A DNA stretch of 64,000 nt from contig NZ_JTAN02000021.1 in assembly GCF_000949135.2 (NCBI RefSeq), forward strand, positions 806,001 to 870,000. Reading direction: 5' to 3'. This stretch comes from Burkholderia sp. USMB20. Lineage in GTDB: Bacteria > Pseudomonadota > Gammaproteobacteria > Burkholderiales > Burkholderiaceae. The translations under genes were made by a program, and so were the position numbers. The stretch's first letter is position 1. Every line of letters starts with the position of its first letter. Positions 1,424-49,983 of this stretch are shown in pieces. The notes under the pieces are model-generated. The model was not told the origin of the DNA. It saw nothing but the letters and a program-made list of their open reading frames with translations, and searched no databases.

Positions 1424-2066
1424 GGCTGTATATCTGACGCTTTTGGTCTGTCGTTGACGTCGCGGGGGGTGTCTCCTGGGCGACGCGAAGCCCTTGGGGC
1501 CGCGAGGGGCGGCCCGGCACCACGGGCACGGTCGGAGTATCGCAGAGGCCATCGCCGCGAAATGTCCGTTGAATGCAAAAGATACTTGCCGAATGCGCCG
1601 GGTATCGAACGGCCGTTCTGTGACAGGGAGCCGGCTGCGCATCGAATGCAGTCGAAAGGTGCACGAAAGCGGACCGCCAATTTGCCGCACGCGGATTACA
1701 AATTGCTTGACGCCAATCGATCGAGATCTTTCCGGATTGACCGCGCAAACGCGGGGAATCCGCATGCGACGGCCGATCGGCGATCGCCGCGGCCGATTGT
1801 CTCCCGACGCGGCTTTTGCGGGCCTGATGCACATCAACGCGACGACGCGCGCGGAGCGCCGCCGCGCCCGCGCGCAAGGCCCGTCCGCCCTTGACAGCCG
1901 CGCGATGCGAACCACACTGGAGCAGGTAAGGCCCGCCTGTGCGAACGCCGTTTCGCGCATCCGGTTCGCAACCGGCCGATGTCCGGAATACGCGGTAACA
2001 CTCTCGTATGTCAGGACATTGATCGAATAAAAAGCAACAAATTACAATTCCGTATATATTTCGCCG
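1424..2066. other. Intergenic region between divergent genes
   Basis: About 640 bases without a convincing gene. The short frames here lack ribosome sites and family signatures. The right end (about 2020-2066) is markedly AT-rich compared with its surroundings, with TTGATC and TATATT elements just before the phosphonate operon start, so it probably carries that operon's promoter. The exact -35/-10 pair cannot be fixed by eye because the spacing is ambiguous. Confidence 0.5.
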
Positions 2067-2747
2067 ATGGACCAAAGAAAAACCGCCACACGTTCCGAAC
2101 CGCCCCTGCCACGCACCTGGGATGCGCGGCTCGCGCGCTCGCTCGTACGCCCGCTGATCGACACGCCCGTCACCCCGAATCACCTCACTACCCTTCGTCT
2201 GCTGATCGGCCTCGCCGGTGCCTGGTGCCTCGCGCAAGGCGGCTTCGGCTGGATCAACGCGGGGGCATTCCTGATCGTGCTGTCGAACTTCGTCGACCAC
2301 ACCGACGGCGAACTCGCGCGCATCAGCGGCAAGTCCAGCAAGATCGGTCACTTTTACGACCTCGCGGCCGACGCGTTCGTGACGGTCGCGCTGTTCGTCA
2401 GCATGGGCCTCGGCATCGTCGCCCAGGGCGGCCAGATGGCCGCGTCGCCGGTGCTGCTCGGCGCGGTGGCCGGTGCGGCCGTCGCGCTGATCTTCTTCCT
2501 GCGCATGCGGATCGAATCGATCGCCGGCAAGGCCGGCACCAAGCAGGCGTTCGCAGGCGGCTTCGAGACGGAAGACGTCCTCTACCTGCTGCCGATCGTG
2601 ACGCTCGTCGACGGCGTGCAGCCGTTCCTGCTCGCGGCATCGATCGGCGCCCCGCTGTTCGCCGCGTGGGTCGTGATCGACTGGTGGCGCATCGTCCGCC
2701 GCGGCAATCTCCCGCAGAACCCTACCGAAATCCAGGTTTCCAAATGA
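2067..2747 (+). CDS. CDP-alcohol phosphatidyltransferase family membrane enzyme
   Basis: Integral membrane enzyme of 226 residues from the family that transfers a phospho-alcohol group from a CDP-linked donor to an alcohol acceptor. The full family signature is present: D77, D80-G81, A84-R85, G94, D98 and D102, in the order D-x2-DG-x2-AR-x8-G-x3-D-x3-D, followed by several hydrophobic segments. It is the first gene of an operon whose third-from-last product is a phosphonate cytidylyltransferase. By analogy with ethanolamine phosphotransferase, CDP-2-aminoethylphosphonate would be the natural donor and a diacylglycerol-like or other lipid the acceptor. That substrate choice is inference; the other nucleotidyltransferase in the operon (4588) could instead supply its donor. 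The stop overlaps the next start in an ATGA. Confidence 0.85.
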   Translation: MDQRKTATRSEPPLPRTWDARLARSLVRPLIDTPVTPNHLTTLRLLIGLAGAWCLAQGGFGWINAGAFLIVLSNFVDHTDGELARISGKSSKIGHFYDLAADAFVTVALFVSMGLGIVAQGGQMAASPVLLGAVAGAAVALIFFLRMRIESIAGKAGTKQAFAGGFETEDVLYLLPIVTLVDGVQPFLLAASIGAPLFAAWVVIDWWRIVRRGNLPQNPTEIQVSK

Positions 2748-3553
2748 CTCCTAGCACGCGCGACGACTCCGTGCTGAGCCCGGCACGCCCCGCGCCTGCG
2801 CGCGCGGCAGCGGCCGATCCCGATCGCACCGTGGCCGACTGCGTCGGCCGTCTCGACCTCGACCGCCTGCGCGGCGACTACACGCGCCAGGGCTCGTTCC
2901 TGTACCTCGACGCATTCCTGCCGGCCGACGCGCACGCGAAGCTCGCGGCCGCCGCCCGCGCGATGCAGGCCGGCCTGAACCGCAATTACCTGCCCGGCCA
3001 CAAGCAGGGCGGCAGCGTGAGCCGGCACACGATCGACGAGCAGGCGCCGTACATCGCGGAGCTGTACCGCTCGAAGGCACTGATCGGCTTCCTCGAGAAG
3101 GTCACCGGCGACAAGCTGATGCTGTCGCCGGACGACGATCCGCATGCGTACGCGCTGTACTACTACACGAAGCCGGGCGACCACATCGGCTGGCACTACG
3201 ACACGTCGTACTACGACGGCCGTCGTTACACGCTGCTGATCGGCGTGATCGACGAGTCGTCGTGCCGGCTCGACTACGAACTGCATACGCGCAATCCCGA
3301 CGTGCCCGACGAACCGGGTTCCGTGCAGATCGCAGACGGCGGCATCGTGCTGTTCGACGGCGACAAGCTGCGCCATCGCATCACGCCGCTCGGCCAGAAC
3401 GAGACGCGCGTGTCGCTCACGTTCGAATACGTGACCAACCCCGGCATGCGGCCGTGGAAGCGCTTCATCTCGAACATGAAGGACGCGATCGCGTATTTCG
3501 GTTTCCGCCAGGTGTTCAAGCAGTTGGCTACGCGCCGGTCGAGCGGGTCATGA
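2744..3553 (+). CDS. 2-oxoglutarate/Fe(II)-dependent oxygenase
   Basis: Cytoplasmic non-heme iron oxygenase of 269 residues. The double-stranded beta-helix iron triad is visible as H151-x-D153 (in GWHYDTSYYDGR) and H211 (in DKLRHRIT), with R222 in TRVSLTF as the likely 2-oxoglutarate-binding arginine. The first ~25 residues are Ala/Pro-rich and probably disordered. The start at 2744 overlaps the upstream stop (ATGA), and the gene's own stop overlaps the next start, so translation is probably coupled. Sitting inside a phosphonate operon, it may hydroxylate aminoethylphosphonate or the lipid that receives it. It is not evidently a close relative of the phytanoyl-CoA-type AEP dioxygenase PhnY, so the substrate is unknown. 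Confidence 0.8.
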   Translation: MTPSTRDDSVLSPARPAPARAAAADPDRTVADCVGRLDLDRLRGDYTRQGSFLYLDAFLPADAHAKLAAAARAMQAGLNRNYLPGHKQGGSVSRHTIDEQAPYIAELYRSKALIGFLEKVTGDKLMLSPDDDPHAYALYYYTKPGDHIGWHYDTSYYDGRRYTLLIGVIDESSCRLDYELHTRNPDVPDEPGSVQIADGGIVLFDGDKLRHRITPLGQNETRVSLTFEYVTNPGMRPWKRFISNMKDAIAYFGFRQVFKQLATRRSSGS

Positions 3554-4551
3554 CACGCGCCGGCCTGATCCTGCTGTCCCTCGGAACGGCACTGTTCGTC
3601 GCCCTGCTCGCGTGGCAGGGCGTCGGCGCGGTCGCGTCGACGTTCCTCGCGGCCGGCTGGGGCCTCGCGCTCGTCGCGGCATTCCACGTCGTCCCGCTCG
3701 TGATCGACGCGCTGGCGATCTCGGTGATGTTCCGCCGCGGCCAGCCGGGCGCCGAGCTCGGCAACGCGCTGCGCGCGCGCTGGGTCGGCGAATCGGTGAA
3801 CAGCCTGCTGCCCGCCGGGCAGATCGGCGGCCCGGTGCTGATGGTGCGCCACCTCGCGCAGCGCGGCACGCGGATGGCCGACGCGGCCGCCGCGGTCACC
3901 GTCAGCACGACGATGCAGGCGCTCGCGCAGATGGCGTTCGCGCTGATCGGCATCGCCACGTTCAGCGTGTATGCGACGCACGAGTCGGTCGCTCACCTGC
4001 GCACGCCGGCGCTGATCGCCACCGGCGTGCTCGGCGCGCTGGCCGTCGCGTTCTACGCGGCGCAGCGGCGCGGGCTGTTCGGCCGCGGGCTGCGCCTCGC
4101 GTCGAAGCTGCTCGGCCCGCGCGACTGGTCGTCGCTCGCGACCCGCGCGGACGCGATCGACGACGCGGTCGGCGCGCTGTACCGCGATCGCGCGAAGGTC
4201 GCGAAGACCTTCGCATTGAGCCTCGCCGGCTGGATCGTCGGCACCGCCGAAGTGTGGCTCGCGCTGCACTTCCTCGGGCACCCGGTCAGCTGGCTCGACG
4301 CGCTGCTGCTCGAGAGCGTCGGCCAGGCGATTCGCGGTGCGGCATTCGCGATCCCGGGCTCGCTCGGCGCACAGGAAGGCGGTTACCTGCTGCTCGCCCC
4401 GCTGGTCGGCCTGCCGCCCGACGCGGCGCTCGCGCTGTCGCTCGCGAAGCGCGCGCGCGAACTCGCGCTCGGCCTGCCCGGCCTGCTCTATCTGCATTTC
4501 AGTGAAAGAAACTGGCAGCGGCGCCGTGCGCCGCAGCCCATCGCCGACTGA
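3550..4551 (+). CDS. Flippase-like / lysylphosphatidylglycerol synthase transmembrane-region family protein (HpnL-like)
   Basis: Polytopic inner-membrane protein of 333 residues with about eight hydrophobic segments. Characteristic pieces are the VGESVNSLLPAGQIGGP loop (residues ~79-95) and the GAAFAIPGSLGAQEGGY loop near residue 270, both typical of the HpnL/LPG-synthase transmembrane family (UPF0104). Relatives are linked to lipid flipping or hopanoid and glycolipid clusters. It starts on an ATGA overlap with the oxygenase gene and is followed after 36 bases by a nucleotidyltransferase gene. In this context a role in translocating a modified lipid across the inner membrane is plausible but inferred; nothing in the sequence identifies the lipid. 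Confidence 0.78.
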   Translation: MTRAGLILLSLGTALFVALLAWQGVGAVASTFLAAGWGLALVAAFHVVPLVIDALAISVMFRRGQPGAELGNALRARWVGESVNSLLPAGQIGGPVLMVRHLAQRGTRMADAAAAVTVSTTMQALAQMAFALIGIATFSVYATHESVAHLRTPALIATGVLGALAVAFYAAQRRGLFGRGLRLASKLLGPRDWSSLATRADAIDDAVGALYRDRAKVAKTFALSLAGWIVGTAEVWLALHFLGHPVSWLDALLLESVGQAIRGAAFAIPGSLGAQEGGYLLLAPLVGLPPDAALALSLAKRARELALGLPGLLYLHFSERNWQRRRAPQPIAD

Positions 4552-4587
4552 TCGTTCAGATCCGCCGGCTTTTTGGTTGGAGAACCC

Positions 4588-5355
4588 ATGCGAGCCATCA
4601 TTCTTGCGGCAGGCCTCGGCTTGCGCCTGCAACAACCGCCTGAGGCGCAATTTCCGAAGTGCCTGCTGCGCTTCGACGACGTGTCGCTGCTCGAGCGCCA
4701 TCTGCGCGTGCTCGACGCCGCCGGCGTCGATGAAATCGTGCTCGGGCTCGGCTTTCAGCACGAGAAGGTCGAGCAGGAACTGAAGCGCCTCGGCCGCACG
4801 GCCGAGATCGTGATCAACGAGCGCTACGACCTCGGCAGCGTGCTGACCGTGCATACCGTCGCCGATGCGATGACGCGCGGCGGCGACGTGCTGCTGATGG
4901 ACGCCGACGTGCTGTACGACGAGAACATCCTGCACGCGCTGGTCGCCGACGCCGACAAGTCGGTCGACCGCCTGCTGATCGATCGCGACTTCGAGGCCGG
5001 CGACGAACCCGTCAAGCTGTGCCTGAAGAACGGCGTGCCGGTCGAGCTGCGCAAGCAGCTCGCGGTCGACCTCGACTACGACACGATCGGCGAGTCGGTC
5101 GGCTTCTTCCGCTTCACCGAAGGCACCGCGCGCCGCCTCGCGAAAATCGTCGCGGGCTACGTCGACAGCGGCCGCGCGAACATGCCGCACGAGGAAGCCG
5201 TGCGCGACCTGCTGCTCGAAGGCGGCCACGCGTTCGACGTCGCCGACGTCACGGGTTCGCCGTGGATCGAGATCGACTTCCCGAACGACGTCGCACGCGC
5301 GACGCAAGAGATTCTCCCCCTGATTCAACGCACGACCGCCGGAGCCGCACGATGA
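4588..5355 (+). CDS. NTP transferase (sugar- or alcohol-phosphate nucleotidyltransferase)
   Basis: A 255-residue Rossmann-type nucleotidyltransferase. The N-terminal LAAGLGLRL signature (residues 6-14), a following FPKCLL with K24, and a DADVLYDE acidic motif for the metal are intact. It belongs to the broad family that couples CTP, UTP or GTP to sugar or polyol phosphates; its short single-domain form resembles inositol-1-phosphate or choline-phosphate cytidylyltransferases more than long sugar enzymes. A second, divergent nucleotidyltransferase domain sits in the next gene, so the operon probably makes two activated intermediates, or one feeds the phosphatidyltransferase and the other something else. 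It overlaps the next start by ATGA. Substrate not assigned. Confidence 0.82.
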
Positions 5356-7037
5356 ACGCACGCGAACCCAACTTCTCCGAATCGCGCAGCGCACGCCTGC
5401 GCCGCATGCTCGTCAGCAGCGAACTCGAATTCCTGATGGAAGCGCACAACGGCCTGTCCGCGCGCATCGTCCGCGAAGCGGGCTTCAAGGGGATCTGGGC
5501 ATCGGGCCTCGCGATCTCCGCGCAGTTCGGCGTGCGCGACAACAACGAGGCAAGCTGGACGCAGGTCGTCGACGTGCTCGAGTTCATGGCCGACGCGAGC
5601 GACCTGCCGATCCTGCTCGACGGCGACACCGGCTACGGCAACTTCAACAACGTGCGCCGCCTCGTGAAGAAGCTCGAGCAGCGCGGCATCGCCGGCGTCT
5701 GTATCGAGGACAAGCAGTTCCCGAAGACCAACAGCTTCATCGGCGGCGAGCGCCAGCCGCTCGCGGAAATCGACGAGTTCTGCGGCAAGATCAAGGCCGG
5801 CAAGGATTCGCAGACCGATCCCGACTTCTCGATCGTCGCGCGTGTCGAAGCGCTGATCGCAGGCTGGGGGATGGACGAGGCGCTGCGTCGCGCGAACGCG
5901 TACGCGGAAGCCGGCGCCGACGCAATCCTGATCCACAGCAAGCTGTCGCGCCCGGACGAGATCCTGCAGTTCGCGCGCGAATGGAGCGGCAAGGCGCCGC
6001 TCGTGATCGTGCCGACCAAGTACTACAGCACGCCGACCGACGTGTTCCGCCAGGCCGGCATCAGCACCGTGATCTGGGCGAACCACCTGATCCGCGCGTC
6101 GGCATCCGCGATGCAGGCGACCGCGCGCGAGATCCACGAGAGCGAAACGCTGATCAACGTCGAGGACCGCGTTGCATCGGTCAACGAGATCTTCCGCCTG
6201 CAGGACGCCGACGAGTACTCGGCCGCCGAGCGCATCTACCTGTCGTCGTCGTCGCGCGCGTCGAACGCCGCGATCGTGCTCGCCGCGAGCCGCGGCAAGG
6301 GCCTCGAAGCCGTCACCGAAGACAAGCCGAAGGTCATGCTGCCGGTCGCCGGCAAGCCGTTGCTGCGCTGGCTCGTCGACGGCTTCAAGACGCACGGCGT
6401 GAACGACATCACCGTGGTCGGCGGCTATCGCGCCGACGCGATCGACACGTCGGGCATCAAGCTCGTGGTCAACGAACGCCATGCGCAGACGGGCGAACTC
6501 GCATCGCTCGCATGTGCGGCCGAACGCCTGACCGGCGACACCGTGATCTCGTACGGCGACCTGCTGTTCCGCAGCTACATCGTGCGCGACCTCGCGGAGA
6601 GCGAGGCCGAGTTCAGCGTCGTCGTCGATTCGTCGCTCACGGAAACCAACCAGAGCGTGCGCGACTTCGCGTTGTGCTCGGCGGCGGACGACCGCGGCCT
6701 GTTCGGCCAGAAGACGTATCTGCAACGTGTGTCGAGCGACGTCGCCGCCGGCACGCCGCACGGCCGCTGGATCGGTCTCCTGAACGTGCGCGGCGCGGGC
6801 GTCGATCGCCTGAAGGCGATGCTCGCGACGCTGCAGGCACGCCCCGATTTCGACGCGCTCGACATCCCGTCGCTGCTCAACGAGCTGATCGCCGCCGGCG
6901 AGAAGATCGAGGTCCAGTACGTGCACGGCCACTGGCGCGGCGTCAACGATCTGGAAGACTTCCGCCGCGCGGGCGACTTCGCGCACGGCCAGACGCCGCT
7001 GTCCGAGCCGGGCGCCGGCAACGGGGGCGCGCAATGA
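5352..7037 (+). CDS. Phosphoenolpyruvate mutase fused to phosphonate cytidylyltransferase (PepM-PntC)
   Basis: Bifunctional cytoplasmic protein of 561 residues. Residues ~15-285 are PEP mutase, which makes the C-P bond by converting PEP to phosphonopyruvate: the metal-binding LLDGDTGYG (D90, D92) and the diagnostic [10 protein letters not shown] (119-128) are intact, distinguishing it from isocitrate lyase-like relatives. After a short linker, residues ~305-550 form a nucleotidyltransferase fold with [21 protein letters not shown] and a VISYGDLLF acidic motif. The fused domain matches the arrangement of PntC, which makes CMP-aminoethylphosphonate from CTP and AEP. Having both on one chain shows the phosphonate is meant for activation and transfer, not breakdown. 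Starts and ends in ATGA overlaps. Confidence 0.93.
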
Positions 7038-8215
7038 TCGAAGCGGCCCAGTTCGTCGAGGCCGCGCGCGAACGCGGCTTCGACTGGTACGCGGGCGTGC
7101 CCTGCTCGTACCTGACGCCGTTCATCAACTACGTGCTGCAGGACCCGACGCTGCACTACGTGTCGGCCGCGAACGAAGGCGACGCGGTCGCGCTGATCGC
7201 GGGCGCCACGCTCGGCGGCAAGCGCGGGATCGCGATGATGCAGAACTCGGGGCTCGGCAACGCGGTGAGCCCGCTCACGTCGCTGACCTGGACGTTCCGG
7301 CTGCCGCAGCTGCTGATCGTCACGTGGCGCGGCCAGCCGGGCGTCGCCGACGAGCCGCAGCACGCGCTGATGGGCCCGATCACGCCGGCGATGCTCGACA
7401 CGATGGAGATCCCGTGGGAGACGTTCCCGACCGACCCCGCACAGGTCGGCCCGGCGCTCGACCGCGCGATCGCGCACATGGACGCGACGGGCCGCCCGTA
7501 CGCGCTCGTGATGCAGAAAGGCAGCGTCGCGCCGTATGAGCTGAAGGCGAATCCGGCGGCCGCGCCGCGCGCGCATGTCGCCGCGCAATCGTCGTCGCGT
7601 GCGGCGTCGGCCGACGCGTGGCCGACCCGCCACGACGCGCTGCAGCGCGTGATCGCGCACACGCCGGTCGATTCGACCGTCGTGCTCGCGTCGACCGGCT
7701 TCTGCGGCCGCGAGCTCTATGCGATCGACGACCGCCCGAACCAGCTGTACATGGTCGGCTCGATGGGCTGCGTGACGCCGCTCGCGCTGGGTCTCGCGCT
7801 CGCGCGCCCCGACCTGCGCGTGGTGGCCGTCGACGGCGACGGCGCCGCGCTGATGCGCATGGGCGTGTTCGCGACGCTCGGCACCTACGGCCCGGCCAAC
7901 CTCACGCACGTGCTGCTCGACAACGGCGCACACGAATCGACGGGCGGCCAGGCGACCGTGTCGCAGCATGTGTCGTTCGCGGGTGTCGCGGCCGCATGCG
8001 GCTATGCGTCGGCCGTCGAAGGCGACACGCTCGACGTGCTCGATGCAACGCTCGCCGCGCGGGCCGACGGTGCGCAGTTCGTGCGCGTGGCGATCCGCAC
8101 GGGCGTGCCCGACGGCCTGCCCCGCCCGACCGTCACGCCGGTCGAGGTCAAGACCCGCCTGATGCGGCATATCGGCGCCGCGCAGGCTGAAGCCCACGCC
8201 GAAGGAGCTCATTGA
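7034..8215 (+). CDS. Phosphonopyruvate decarboxylase
   Basis: Thiamine-diphosphate enzyme of 393 residues that decarboxylates phosphonopyruvate to phosphonoacetaldehyde, pulling the unfavourable PEP mutase reaction forward. Seen: the N-terminal [14 protein letters not shown] and [14 protein letters not shown] segments (the family's Glu is in AANEGDA), and a C-terminal ThDP/Mg motif [10 protein letters not shown] continuing to [13 protein letters not shown] around residues 275-315. The poorly conserved Ala/Ser-rich stretch around residues 177-200 is a domain linker. It overlaps the PepM-PntC gene by ATGA and is followed by the aminotransferase gene with a TGATG junction, as expected for a three-step AEP pathway. 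Confidence 0.93.
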
Positions 8216-9279
8216 TGCTGCTGCTGAATCCCGGCCCGGTCACGCTCACCGAACGCGTGCGCCGCAGCCTGCTGCAACCCGACCTGTGCCATCGCGAAAG
8301 CGAATTCTTCGATCTGCAGGATGAAGCGCGTGCGCGCCTCGTCGCCGCGTACGAGCTCGATCCGGCCGAATGGGCCGCCGTGCTGATGACCGGCTCGGGC
8401 ACCGCCGCCGTCGAGAGCATGATCGCGGCGCTCGTGCCGCAGGACGGCAAGCTGCTCGTGATCGAGAACGGCGTGTACGGCGAGCGCATCACGCAGATCG
8501 CGATGCAGTACGGAATCGCGCACGAGGTGCTGAAGCACGAATGGATGCAGGCGCCCGATCTCGCGCAGATCGCCGCGCGTCTCGACGCGGGCGGTTATTC
8601 GCACGTCGCGGTGATTCATCACGAAACGACGACCGGCCGGCTGAACGACCTCGGCGCGATCGCCGACGTGTGCCGTGCGCGCGGCGTGAAGATGCTCGTC
8701 GACGGCGTCAGCAGCTTCGGCGCCGAAGCGATCGACTTCGCCGGCGGCGTGATCGACGCGGTCGCCGCGACCGCGAACAAGTGCCTGCACGGCGTGCCGG
8801 GTGCCGCATTCGTGATCGTGCGCCGCAGCGCGCTCGCGAAGGCCGCGAGCCGCACGTATTACCTTGATCTCGGCCGGCTCGCGAAGCTGCAGGATCAGCG
8901 CAATACGCCGTTCACGCCGTCCGTGCACGCGTACTACGCGCTCGTCGAGGCGCTGCGCGAGTTCGACGAAGCCGGTGGATGGCGCGCGCGCCATGCGCAC
9001 TACAAGGCGCTCGCCGATCAGGCGCAGGCCGGGCTCGCGGCGCGCGGGATGTCGCTCGTGCTGCCGGAAGGCGCGTCGTCGGTCGTGCTGCGTGCGTACC
9101 GGCTGCCGCAAGGCGTCACGTACGAGACGCTGCACGACGGGCTGAAGGCACGTGGCTTCGTGATTTACGCGGGGCAAGGCGGGTTGTCGAAGGAACTGTT
9201 CCGCATTTCGACGATGGGCGCGATTCAAGCGGCTGATGTCGAGCGGTTGCTGGAGGGTTTTACGGCGCTGACGCAGTAA
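8215..9279 (+). CDS. phnW: 2-aminoethylphosphonate aminotransferase (PhnW-like)
   Basis: Pyridoxal-phosphate enzyme of 354 residues, fold type I class V. It interconverts phosphonoacetaldehyde and 2-aminoethylphosphonate; here the biosynthetic direction is implied by the neighbours. Seen: [12 protein letters not shown] at the start, as in the AEP transaminases, the TGSGTAAVES phosphate-binding region, D163 in LVDGVSSFGA and the Schiff-base lysine K189 in ATANKCLHG. The ATG at 8215 is chosen over the TTG one codon earlier because an AGGAG sits 8 bases upstream and it overlaps the previous stop (TGATG). Last gene of the operon; a strong terminator follows 21 bases downstream. Confidence 0.92.
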   Translation: MLLLNPGPVTLTERVRRSLLQPDLCHRESEFFDLQDEARARLVAAYELDPAEWAAVLMTGSGTAAVESMIAALVPQDGKLLVIENGVYGERITQIAMQYGIAHEVLKHEWMQAPDLAQIAARLDAGGYSHVAVIHHETTTGRLNDLGAIADVCRARGVKMLVDGVSSFGAEAIDFAGGVIDAVAATANKCLHGVPGAAFVIVRRSALAKAASRTYYLDLGRLAKLQDQRNTPFTPSVHAYYALVEALREFDEAGGWRARHAHYKALADQAQAGLAARGMSLVLPEGASSVVLRAYRLPQGVTYETLHDGLKARGFVIYAGQGGLSKELFRISTMGAIQAADVERLLEGFTALTQ

Positions 9280-9300
9280 CGCTACTCGCTTCGTCGACGA

Positions 9301-9322
9301 AAGGCCCGCAAGGGCCTTTTTT
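9301..9322 (+). terminator. Rho-independent terminator of the phosphonate operon
   Basis: A 7-bp stem AAGGCCC/GGGCCTT with a GCAA tetraloop is followed by a run of six T from 9317. It lies just after the aminotransferase stop and closes the seven-gene operon. Confidence 0.88.
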
Positions 9323-33295: not shown

Positions 33296-34563
33296 CCACC
33301 CACGGCATCATCCAGCGCCTGCAGGACTTCGTCTTCTACTATCCGTTCTTCATGTCGTATCTGTGGATGATCGGCGGCGTCGTCCATTATTTCCTGCTCG
33401 AGGAAGGCCGCGAGCTGTCGACGCGCACGATCGCCGCGAGCGGCATCCCGAAGATCTCGATCGTCGTGCCGTGCTTCAACGAGGCCGCCAACGCACGCAG
33501 CGTGATCCGCCACCTCAACGCGATGGACTACCCGAACTACGACATCATCGCGGTCAACGACGGCAGCCGGGACCGCACGGGCGACATCCTCAACGAGCTG
33601 GCCGTCGAGATCCCGCGGCTGCTCGTCATCCATCACGCGCGCAACGAAGGCAAGGCGGTCGGGCTCACCACCGCGGCGGCGGTATCGAACGCGGAATACC
33701 TGCTCTGCATCGACGGCGATGCGCTGCTCGCGCATGACGCGATCGGCTGGATGCTCGAGCACTTCCTGACCGACCCGGGCGTCGGCGCGGTCACCGGCAA
33801 CCCGCGCATCCGCACGCGCACGTCGCTGCTGGGACGCATGCAGGTCGGCGAATTCTCGTCGATCGTCGGCCTGATCAAGCGCACGCAGCAGGTGTACGGC
33901 CGCATCTTCACGGTGTCGGGCGTGATCACGATGTTCCGCAAGACCGCGCTCGCCGACGTCGGCTACTGGAGCTCGGACATGCTGACCGAGGACATCGACA
34001 TCAGCTGGAAGCTGCAGTGCCGCGACTGGCGCGTCGTGTACGAGCCGCACGCGCTCAGCTGGATCCTGATGCCCGAGACGCTGAAGGGTCTCTACCGGCA
34101 GCGATTGCGCTGGGCGAAAGGCGGCATCCAGGTGCTGATCAAGTACGCGGGCACGCTCGCGCGGCCGACCCAGATGATGATGTGGCCGCTGTTCGTCGAG
34201 TACCTGATCGGCATCACGTGGGCCTACTCGATGTCGTTCATCCTGCTGCTCGCGCTCGTCGACGTCGTCTACCCGCTTCCGCCCGACTGGCATGTGTCCG
34301 TGGTGCCGCACTGGCACGGGATGCTGCTGGTCGCGACCTGCATCCTGCAGCTGATCATCGGCAGCATGATCGATCGTCGTTACGACGAAAAACTCCTGAT
34401 GTATTTCCTTGACACCGTCTGGTACCCCGTCGCGTTCTGGCTGATCAGCATGATCACCACCGTCGTCGCCCTGCCCGCCGTCGTACTGCGGGGCCGCGGC
34501 AAGCGCGCCGTCTGGGTCAGTCCCGACCGAGGCATTCAACATGAAGAACGCGCCGATTATTGA
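33292..34563 (+). CDS. pgaC: PNAG synthase catalytic subunit, family 2 glycosyltransferase (PgaC-like)
   Basis: Inner-membrane processive glycosyltransferase of 423 residues that polymerises UDP-GlcNAc. Motifs seen: an N-terminal membrane segment (FFMSYLWMIGGVVHYFLL), ISIVVPCFNEAANA, the sugar-nucleotide D in VNDGSRDRTG, the D-x-D in CIDGDALL, the TED acid motif in MLTEDIDISWK, and RQRLRWAKGG (Q/RxxRW), followed by three to four transmembrane helices. It overlaps pgaB by 4 bases and pgaD by 23 bases, so synthesis of the pair is likely coupled. The combination of PgaB and PgaD neighbours fixes the product as PNAG rather than cellulose or hyaluronan. Confidence 0.94.
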   Translation: MTTHGIIQRLQDFVFYYPFFMSYLWMIGGVVHYFLLEEGRELSTRTIAASGIPKISIVVPCFNEAANARSVIRHLNAMDYPNYDIIAVNDGSRDRTGDILNELAVEIPRLLVIHHARNEGKAVGLTTAAAVSNAEYLLCIDGDALLAHDAIGWMLEHFLTDPGVGAVTGNPRIRTRTSLLGRMQVGEFSSIVGLIKRTQQVYGRIFTVSGVITMFRKTALADVGYWSSDMLTEDIDISWKLQCRDWRVVYEPHALSWILMPETLKGLYRQRLRWAKGGIQVLIKYAGTLARPTQMMMWPLFVEYLIGITWAYSMSFILLLALVDVVYPLPPDWHVSVVPHWHGMLLVATCILQLIIGSMIDRRYDEKLLMYFLDTVWYPVAFWLISMITTVVALPAVVLRGRGKRAVWVSPDRGIQHEERADY

Positions 34564-47691: not shown

Positions 47692-48255
47692 ATGCCGATC
47701 ATCAACACCCAAATCAAACCGTTCAAGGCAACCGCATACCACAACGGCGATTTCGTGCCCGTGACCGAAGAGAACTTCAAGGGCAAGTGGTCCGTCGTCG
47801 TGTTCTACCCGGCCGACTTCACGTTCGTCTGCCCGACCGAGCTGGGCGACCTCGCCGACCGCTACGCGGAATTCCAGAAGCTGGGTGTCGAAATCTACGG
47901 CGTGTCGACCGATACGCACTTCACGCACAAGGCCTGGCACGACACGTCGGACACGATCGGCAAGATCAAGTACCCGATGATCGGCGACCCGACGCTCACG
48001 CTGTCGCGCAACTTCGACGTGCTGATCGAAGAAGAAGGGATGGCGCTGCGCGGCACGTTCGTGATCAACCCGGAAGGCGAGATCAAGCTGTGCGAAATCC
48101 ACGACAACGGCATCGGCCGCGACGCCGGCGAACTGCTGCGCAAGGTGCAGGCTGCGCAATACATCGCGGCGCACCCGGGTGAAGTGTGCCCGGCCAAGTG
48201 GACGCCGGGTGCGGAAACGCTGACCCCGTCGCTCGACCTGATCGGCAAGATCTAA
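47692..48255 (+). CDS. ahpC: Alkyl hydroperoxide reductase subunit C (2-Cys peroxiredoxin)
   Basis: Cytoplasmic peroxidase of 187 residues that reduces hydrogen peroxide and organic hydroperoxides. The peroxidatic C47 in FVCPTE and resolving C166 in EVCPAKW are present, along with [14 protein letters not shown] and the arginine in [12 protein letters not shown]. The length is that of typical AhpC. It is reduced by AhpF, encoded 129 bases downstream on the same strand. Confidence 0.97.
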
Positions 48256-48384
48256 GGGTCGCCCGGCGCCTCGCTCGAGGCGCCCAGGAAGCACCCAGCC
48301 GGGCCGCTGCCTCGCGCGGCGGCCCGCACCCTCCTCCGGCACGACGTGCCCGAGCAGCCAAATCAATACGGAATCCGAAACGCC

Positions 48385-49983
48385 ATGCTCGACGCCAATC
48401 TCAAGAACCAACTGAAAGCGTACCTCGAAAAGATCACGCGCCCGATCGAACTCGTCGCGTCGCTCAACGACAGCGCGAAATCGCAGGAACTGCTTGCGCT
48501 GCTGAACGAGATTGCGTCGCTGACGTCGCGCGTGACCGTGACCGAACGCCGCGACGATGTCGAGCGCAAGCCGTCGTTCTCGATCGGCGAACCCGGCAAG
48601 CCGGCCGGCATCCGCTTCGCCGGCATCCCGATGGGCCATGAATTCACGTCGCTCGTGCTCGCGCTGCTGCAGACGGGCGGCCATCCGGTCAAGCTCGACG
48701 ACGACGTGATCGAACAGATCCGCGCGCTCGACGGCGACTACACGTTCGAGACGTATTTCTCGCTGTCGTGCCAGAACTGCCCGGAAGTCGTGCAGGCGCT
48801 GAACGTGATGTCGCTGATCAACCCGCGCATCCGCCACGTCGCGATCGACGGCGCGCTGTTCCAGAACGAAGTCGATGCGCGCCAGATCATGGCCGTGCCC
48901 ACGATGTTCCTGAACGGCGAATCGTTCGGCCAGGGCCGCAGCAGCGTGAAGGAAATCCTCGCGAAGCTCGACACGGGTGCCGGCGAGCGCGCCGCGAAGT
49001 CGCTCGAGAACAAGCCGGTGTTCGACACGCTGATCGTCGGCGGCGGCCCGGCCGGTGCGGCCGCGGCAATCTACTCGGCGCGCAAGGGCATCGCGACGGG
49101 CGTCGTCGCCGAGCGTTTCGGCGGCCAGGTGCTCGACACGATGGCGATCGAGAACTTCGTGTCGGTGCAGGAAACCGAAGGGCCGAAGTTCGCCGCGGCG
49201 CTCGAGCAGCACGTGAAGCAGTACGACGTCGACATCATGGACGTGCAGCGCGCCGACGCGCTGATTCCGGGCGACGTGCATCAGATCCGCCTGGCGAACG
49301 GCGCGGTGCTGAAGGCGAAGACGATCGTCCTCGCGACCGGCGCGCGCTGGCGCGAAATCAACGTGCCGGGCGAGCGCGAATACCGCAACCGCGGAGTCGC
49401 GTACTGCCCGCACTGCGACGGCCCGCTGTTCAAGGGCAAGCGCGTCGCGGTGGTCGGCGGCGGCAACTCGGGCGTCGAGGCCGCGATCGACCTGGCCGGC
49501 ATCGTGAAGGCCGTCACGCTGATCGAATTCGGTGCGCAACTGCGCGCGGACGAAGTGCTGCAGCGCAAGCTGCGCAGCCTGCCGAACGTGACGATCGTCA
49601 CGCAGGCGCAGACGACCGAGCTGACCGGCGACGGCAGCAAGCTGAACGGGCTCGTCTACAAGGATCTGCGTTCGGGCGAAACGAAGCGGGTCGATCTCGA
49701 AGGCGTGTTCGTGCAGATCGGCCTCGTGCCGAACACCGAGTGGCTGAAGGGCACGGTCGAACTGTCGAAGCACGGCGAGATCGTCGTCGATGCGCGCGGT
49801 GCGACGTCGGTGCCGGGCGTATTCGCCGCCGGCGACGTGACGACGGTGCCGTTCAAGCAGATCGTGATCGCGGTGGGCGAAGGCGCGAAGGCATCGCTCG
49901 GCGCGTTCGATCACCTGATCCGGCAGGACGCGACGCCGGCTACTGCCGACGCGCCGCAGGCCGAAGAAGCGATCGCCGCGTAA
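48385..49983 (+). CDS. ahpF: Alkyl hydroperoxide reductase subunit F (NADH:peroxiredoxin reductase)
   Basis: Flavoprotein of 532 residues that passes electrons from NADH to AhpC. The N-terminal thioredoxin-fold tandem has the redox pair C129-x-x-C132 (SCQNCPEV); the reductase part has the FAD site [12 protein letters not shown] near residue 215, the second disulfide in [12 protein letters not shown] near 350, the NADH site [14 protein letters not shown] and the FAD-binding [15 protein letters not shown]. Start ATG at 48385 ([11 protein letters not shown]); a longer in-frame reading upstream is not family-like. A terminator follows. Confidence 0.96.

Follow-up and report, generated by a model that had tools for sequence, protein, structure and literature searches.

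Rice et al. 2019 (PMC6697681) have described Pnt clusters in which phosphoenolpyruvate (PEP) mutase (PepM), phosphonopyruvate decarboxylase (Ppd) and 2-aminoethylphosphonate (AEP) transaminase (AEPT) occur with one fused and one separate nucleotidyltransferase; AEP is activated there as its cytidine monophosphate conjugate, CMP-AEP, and a cell-surface destination has been proposed. The same enzymes, and by prediction the same logic, are found in a seven-gene operon at positions 2067-9279 of the DNA analysed here, a stretch of 64,000 nucleotides from Burkholderia sp. USMB20 (the window). The operon also resembles a Nostoc lichen cluster (PMC5987646) with a cytidine diphosphate (CDP)-alcohol enzyme, an oxoglutarate-Fe(II) gene, an NTP transferase, pepM, ppd, AEPT and hpnL. 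The same paper also draws the Burkholderia homologue of this cluster, which is interpreted as phosphonolipid, and has HAEP among its abbreviations. For Burkholderia phosphonolipids, hydroxylation of the head group is credited to Yu et al. 2013 by PMC12723261. In Roseomonas, PEP mutase genes are linked to a hopene cyclase and an undiscovered terpene-phosphonate has been suggested (PMC8776678), terpene and phosphonate genes being adjacent there as in the present case. Statements on the content of the papers cited refer to extracts.

Both an operon of this kind and the mere suggestion of a terpene-phosphonate have already been published. The end product of the Burkholderia-wide phosphonate operon is, in the literature consulted, only predicted. 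Our data tentatively point to a phosphonate-capped extended hopanoid, and the hopanoid link turns the end product into a directly testable prediction.

Gene content and catalytic motifs

The genes are called g1 to g7 in order:

2067..2747, + strand: g1, CDP-alcohol phosphotransferase (PF01066 match)
2744..3553, + strand: g2, HalD-type Fe(II)/2-oxoglutarate (2OG) oxygenase (PF23169 match)
3550..4551, + strand: g3, HpnL flippase-like membrane protein (TIGR03476 match)
4588..5355, + strand: g4, PntC-like cytidylyltransferase, separate gene (PF12804 match; Tde-PntC the closest solved relative)
5352..6251, + strand: g5 N-terminal domain, PepM (TIGR02320 match)
6252..7037, + strand: g5 C-terminal domain, second PntC/LicC-like nucleotidyltransferase (PF12804 match)
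7034..8215, + strand: g6, Ppd (TIGR03297 match)
8215..9279, + strand: g7, AEPT (TIGR03301 match)

The g5 reading frame spans 5352-7037, and its domain border was placed by hand at residue 300. Reading frames and family matches bear out the seven genes and the families named in an initial annotation of this DNA. Adjacent genes overlap by 4 bases at four junctions (4/6) and by 1 base at another, where ATG 8215 and not TTG 8212 is taken as the start of g7; a 36-base gap (4552-4587) separates g3 from g4. Each of the 37 Burkholderia genomes searched had a PepM match, so the operon is not a chance arrangement. The match was unbroken in 36 of the 37, with three pieces in G015; that of G009 has one internal TAG.

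The PepM domain of g5 scored 406 bits with TIGR02320 (cut-off 319.55) and 439 bits against the solved structure 1m1b, and the PEP mutase motif EDKxxxxxNS (PMC6697681) is present in the window row of the alignment. For g6 and g7 the scores were 483 bits with the Ppd family TIGR03297 (cut-off 312.5) and 397 bits with the AEPT family TIGR03301 (cut-off 360.8), respectively.

Both nucleotidyltransferases matched NTP_transf_3 (PF12804; cut-off 27), g4 with 53 bits and the C-terminus of g5 with 50 bits. The closest solved relative of g4 is Tde-PntC (6pd1, E 1.2e-11), a proven AEP cytidylyltransferase in which E104 and E196 contact the substrate amine, as D105 and D192 do in LicC (PMC6697681). Residues D105, D107, E202, E228 and D230 of g4 are invariant in 16/16 aligned rows, and D105 and E202 align with the two amine-contacting acids of LicC. 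The evidence is weaker for E202, as the LicC alignment piece scores -2.9, below threshold, and the Tde-PntC alignment fails to place E196 there, which makes this second correspondence less sure. In the PepM-fused domain the first amine position is occupied by Y101, invariant in 13/13 rows, and AEP is therefore a less likely substrate of this domain. By this sequence comparison g4 is the likelier AEP cytidylyltransferase. The initial annotation had taken the fused domain as the activator; it is still a candidate through its PntC/LicC-like fold (structure model with pLDDT 86.2; best PDB matches PntC 6pd2 and LicC 1jyk), but a less likely one given the Tde-PntC match of g4 and the contrast of D105/E202 with Tyr. 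The fold search with this model found the PntC/LicC fold and indicated no substrate. The fused domain has been kept with the operon core despite the Tyr that replaces the amine-contacting acid of PntC and LicC. PepM-nucleotidyltransferase fusions are common, and some clusters hold both a fused and a separate enzyme; neither of the two nucleotidyltransferases assayed by Rice et al. is PepM-fused, as described in the extract (PMC6697681).

CDP-alcohol phosphotransferases carry the signature DX2DGX2ARX8GX3DX3D. The corresponding residues of g1 (D77-x2-D80-G81-x2-A84-R85-x8-G94-x3-D98-x3-D102) are invariant in 15/15 rows, and the protein matched CDP-OH_P_transf (PF01066) with 54 bits (cut-off 22). 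The g2 protein matched the HalD-type 2OG oxygenase family PF23169 with 50 bits (cut-off 26). In the HalD/BesD halogenases HxG/HxA replaces the HxD facial triad, whereas H151-Y-D153, H211 and R222 of g2 are invariant in 15/15 rows. The halogenase function that the family name might imply is rejected on the HxD triad, and because this triad is invariant g2 is expected to act as a hydroxylase. In four relatives g1 and g2 are joined in a single reading frame that carries both Pfam domains:

L226:5104-6639, g1-g2 fusion
L159:6609-8156, g1-g2 fusion
L182:6627-8156, g1-g2 fusion
L233:3818-5485, g1-g2 fusion

These fusions suggest a single substrate for the hydroxylation and the transfer. Hydroxylation may be optional, since several relatives have g4-g5-Ppd-AEPT without g2 within the stretch examined. 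Of these loci, L159 and L182 are named Pandoraea records, and the other two belong to G245 and to one further Burkholderiaceae genus code.

Hopanoid genes in relatives and their co-occurrence with the operon

The g3 protein scored 373.8 bits with the HpnL family TIGR03476 (cut-off 195.65). Among 200 Burkholderiaceae genomes HpnL was over the cut-off in 134, and all 134 had HpnH; three matches below the cut-off came from genomes without HpnH, and one HpnH genome was without HpnL. In Alphaproteobacteria hpnL is likewise reported to be missing where hpnH is absent, and HpnH begins the extended, polyol-bearing hopanoids (PMC12583986). It is these hopanoids that carry free hydroxyls.

In the HpnL tree the phosphonate-linked copies are separate from those linked to hpnIJK, although the fork that unites the former is weak (80/43). 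Seven gammaproteobacterial flippases near the cluster fall on another, distant branch. The hpnIJK-linked copies of L228, L269 and L270 (found by tblastn) have 30-35% identity to the window HpnL. A third HpnL of one Burkholderia genome (L271, G007) adjoins only an HpnI-like match (30%), away from hpnIJKL.

The neighbourhood was examined in the best 80 named loci and in 22 stretches of a class-level sample, with some genomes in both sets. Within or next to hpn clusters, the phosphonate genes were found in gammaproteobacteria, Pandoraea and Nostoc. Two or more hpn genes were present in the stretch examined for 18 of the 80 named loci; an 'HpnJ' match of L218 was dropped from this count for its 25% identity, which lowered it from 19. 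Of the class-sample stretches, 11/22 had hpn genes. At L105 HpnH, HpnA, HpnM and HpnL were over the cut-off beside the phosphonate core, HpnN being only partial, and the order in gene direction is HpnN, g1-type enzyme, HpnA, two other genes, HpnL, g4, g5, Ppd, AEPT, HpnH, followed by an HpnB-like gene and then HpnM. Over-cut-off HpnN and HpnH are beside the core at L096 and L097, respectively. In L226/L227, from one Burkholderiaceae genome that shares hpn and dxs/ispH genes with the named Pandoraea loci L159 and L182 at 83-99% identity, the operon is followed by Dxs, HpnN, an HpnM-like gene, IspH, HpnH, HpnA and HpnB, and then by an HpnG-like phosphorylase, SHC, HpnE, HpnD and HpnC. The reading frame called for Dxs shares 4 bases with AEPT; the HpnM-like label of L226 was given by eye, with no confirming family match at 1e-20. 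The Nostoc locus L155 reads HpnJ-HpnK-HpnI-g1-g2-g4-g5-Ppd-AEPT. On one contig, g5 and HpnH were less than 10 kb apart in 9 of the 21 class-sample genomes with both, and they were less than 14 kb apart in at least 23 of 110 family-sample genomes (from 38 of 135 HpnH positions). In Paraburkholderia xenovorans LB400 (L161, L266), the operon is split: g1-g2-HpnL-g4, the half for attachment, and g5-g6-g7, the half that makes AEP, occupy two separate places of one replicon.

In the g1 tree the closest named relatives of the window g1 are from Burkholderia, and the window g1 groups with CDP-alcohol enzymes situated between HpnN and HpnA, while a second CDP-alcohol paralogue (three rows) stands apart. 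A second, distant CDP-alcohol enzyme adjoins g4 or g2 in two gammaproteobacterial loci (L096:9077-9706 and L097:9908-10666), in addition to the copy between HpnN and HpnA.

Co-occurrence was scored as a g5 (PepM) match versus an HpnH match. Of the 200 Burkholderiaceae genomes, 110 had g5, 135 had HpnH, 110 had both and none had g5 alone, so that HpnH was found in 110/110 g5-positive versus 25/90 g5-negative genomes (Fisher p 3e-32, uncorrected for descent). In the class sample of 369 genomes, with 25 for g5, 50 for HpnH and 21 for both across 11 family codes, the corresponding figures were 21/25 versus 29/344 (p 7e-17, likewise uncorrected). HpnH was also found in 8/8 cyanobacterial genomes with PepM-match loci, against a background of 10/59 that includes one of the eight. 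A g1-like enzyme (E <= 1e-20) occurred in 18 of the 21 HpnH genomes with a PepM match and in one of the 29 without, which leaves the CDP-alcohol enzyme unsupported as a general hopanoid-cluster gene. No g1, g2 or g4 match was found in any of the 13 hpn regions examined from genomes without a PepM match, which cover 13 of the 54 genomes of this type across both samples. Nor is it supported that any PepM cluster accompanies hopanoids, as only 4/12 genomes with other PepM types had HpnH; G926, which is among these four, carries next to its PepM a gene resembling g4 (40%).

Around the operon, two weak candidate sites were noted:

2019..2048, + strand: sigma-70-like promoter candidate, TTGATC-18-TACAAT
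9299..9320, + strand: terminator-like hairpin, then a T run

One sigma-70-like site was observed in the stretch against 0.5 expected by shuffling, which is not proof of a promoter, and the five terminator-like hairpins are near the chance expectation of 4.1. Elsewhere in the window, 33424-34122 gave an HpnI match of 25% and an HpnB match of 36% and is probably an unrelated glycosyltransferase, and 47692-49983 is an ordinary ahpC-ahpF pair (TIGR03137, 342 bits; TIGR03140, 808 bits).

Candidate products and acceptors

The initial annotation proposed a membrane- or envelope-linked phosphonate reached through AEP, CMP activation and a CDP-alcohol enzyme, and this agrees with the families, the catalytic motifs and the published PntC logic; the membrane-lipid reading of the operon is strong. 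The annotation had only "flippase-like" for g3 and no hopanoid tie. It held the acceptor undeducible and a generic phosphonolipid the simplest model. HpnL, the neighbourhood and the co-occurrence point instead to an extended hopanoid as candidate acceptor, and among single explanations this one, which rests on genome context, does best. Whether the operon product is a phosphonate-capped extended hopanoid is in our judgement close to evenly balanced. PEP would be turned into AEP by the mutase, decarboxylase and transaminase, and AEP into CMP-AEP by g4; g1 would then move the AEP phosphonyl group onto a bacteriohopanepolyol hydroxyl, the polyol being bacteriohopanetetrol or one of its derivatives, g2 would hydroxylate the head group or product, and HpnL (g3) would flip the product across the inner membrane. 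For such lipids the computed ions lie near m/z 654.486 (AEP-bacteriohopanetetrol, C37H68NO6P), 670.481 (hydroxy-AEP-bacteriohopanetetrol) and 815.555 (AEP on a bacteriohopanetetrol cyclitol ether). We hold a little more tentatively the wider proposal that Burkholderia and many other hopanoid makers build phosphono-hopanoids, with AEP or hydroxy-AEP in phosphonoester linkage, a CDP-alcohol enzyme as transferase and a dedicated HpnL as flippase.

Several observations weigh against a hopanoid product. Queries with hpn genes returned no clear hpn gene in the window, such genes adjoining the operon only in relatives, and the other loci of the best 80, mostly Paraburkholderia, Cupriavidus and Burkholderia, have the operon separate from hpn genes. 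The counts and Fisher p values are raw and ignore descent and genome size; 17 of 20 family-sample negatives among those listed are below 4 Mb, and the family-sample count is thereby inflated. Four of the 25 class-level g5 genomes have no HpnH match; in three of them (G457, G459, G612) the g4 and g5 C-terminal matches are weak or lacking, and the contig of the fourth (G441) has, next to g4, genes that resemble HpnG and squalene synthase. Among the 18 g1-like matches only 8 are strong (E <= 1e-78), and the other ten (1e-32 to 1e-58) do not surpass the second paralogue (G365, G586), so that orthology of g1 holds for the eight alone; the sole g1-like match without PepM (G253) is a strong one. The association by itself cannot name an acceptor. 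Nor does the g1 structure model (pLDDT 88.6; best PDB match AF2299, 4o6n) favour one: AF2299 and phosphatidylinositol-phosphate synthases match best and CPT1 and CEPT1 more weakly (E 6e-3 to 8e-3), which places the predicted fold nearer to inositol-phosphate-type enzymes than to CEPT1. Lipid profiling of B. cenocepacia, which started from the masses of known hopanoids, names bacteriohopanetetrol cyclitol ethers and, in the extract, no phosphono-hopanoid (PMC8560942). The extract of a B. thailandensis study (PMC12625709) has no phosphono term.

CEPT-type CDP-alcohol phosphotransferases use diacylglycerol, and transfer from CMP-AEP to diacylglycerol, in the manner of the eukaryotic CDP-ethanolamine route, would give a glycerophosphonolipid, with the hopanoid link reflecting membrane partnership or shared regulation and not the acceptor. 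That CEPT1 and CPT1 match g1 structurally, if more weakly, is in line with this, as is the published phosphonolipid interpretation of the Nostoc cluster and of its homologue in Burkholderia (PMC5987646). However, bacteria at large make diacylglycerol, and this acceptor therefore does not explain the HpnH association or the location inside hpn clusters. We regard a glycerophosphonolipid as possible but rather unlikely. Placement of the phosphonate on a glycan, a glycosylated hopanoid or lipid A, in which case a glycolipid would be the substrate of HpnL, is more doubtful: glycans are within the published Pnt logic (PMC6697681), HpnJ, HpnK and HpnI are beside the genes in one Nostoc locus and other Burkholderia HpnL copies accompany hpnIJK, but family searches found no LicD-type transferase or glycosyltransferase family among the seven proteins. 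PepM clusters also yield small molecules, and Burkholderia flavophos arises from a different PepM cluster (PMC12871164); a soluble phosphonate metabolite or antibiotic is nevertheless very improbable here, as the CDP-alcohol enzyme with HpnL, the genus-wide conservation and the HpnH association are unlike an accessory antibiotic.

A phosphonate-capped extended hopanoid would, if true, be a new membrane lipid class uniting two geochemically important kinds of molecule. It would give HpnL a substrate, explain the CDP-alcohol enzymes within hopanoid clusters and imply a pool of polar hopanoids that could escape the standard workups.

Comparison with described systems

Within open PubMed Central we found in print no hopanoid-phosphonate link for Burkholderia, no co-occurrence test and no mechanism. 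The Nostoc cluster differs in its published account, the extract of which neither names a hopanoid acceptor nor tests co-occurrence (PMC5987646). The Roseomonas linkage is from Alphaproteobacteria, and in its extract no transferase, HpnL, mechanism or Burkholderia link is named (PMC8776678). The Pnt clusters described have LicD-like or glycosyltransferase neighbours (PMC6697681), where the window has instead a CDP-alcohol enzyme, a 2OG oxygenase and HpnL, with hopanoid genes for company in relatives. The operon can also be compared to hpnI-hpnJ-hpnK-hpnL (L228, L269, L270), in which HpnL likewise stands beside enzymes that decorate the polyol head, by glucosamine/cyclitol chemistry, however, and not by that of a phosphonate.

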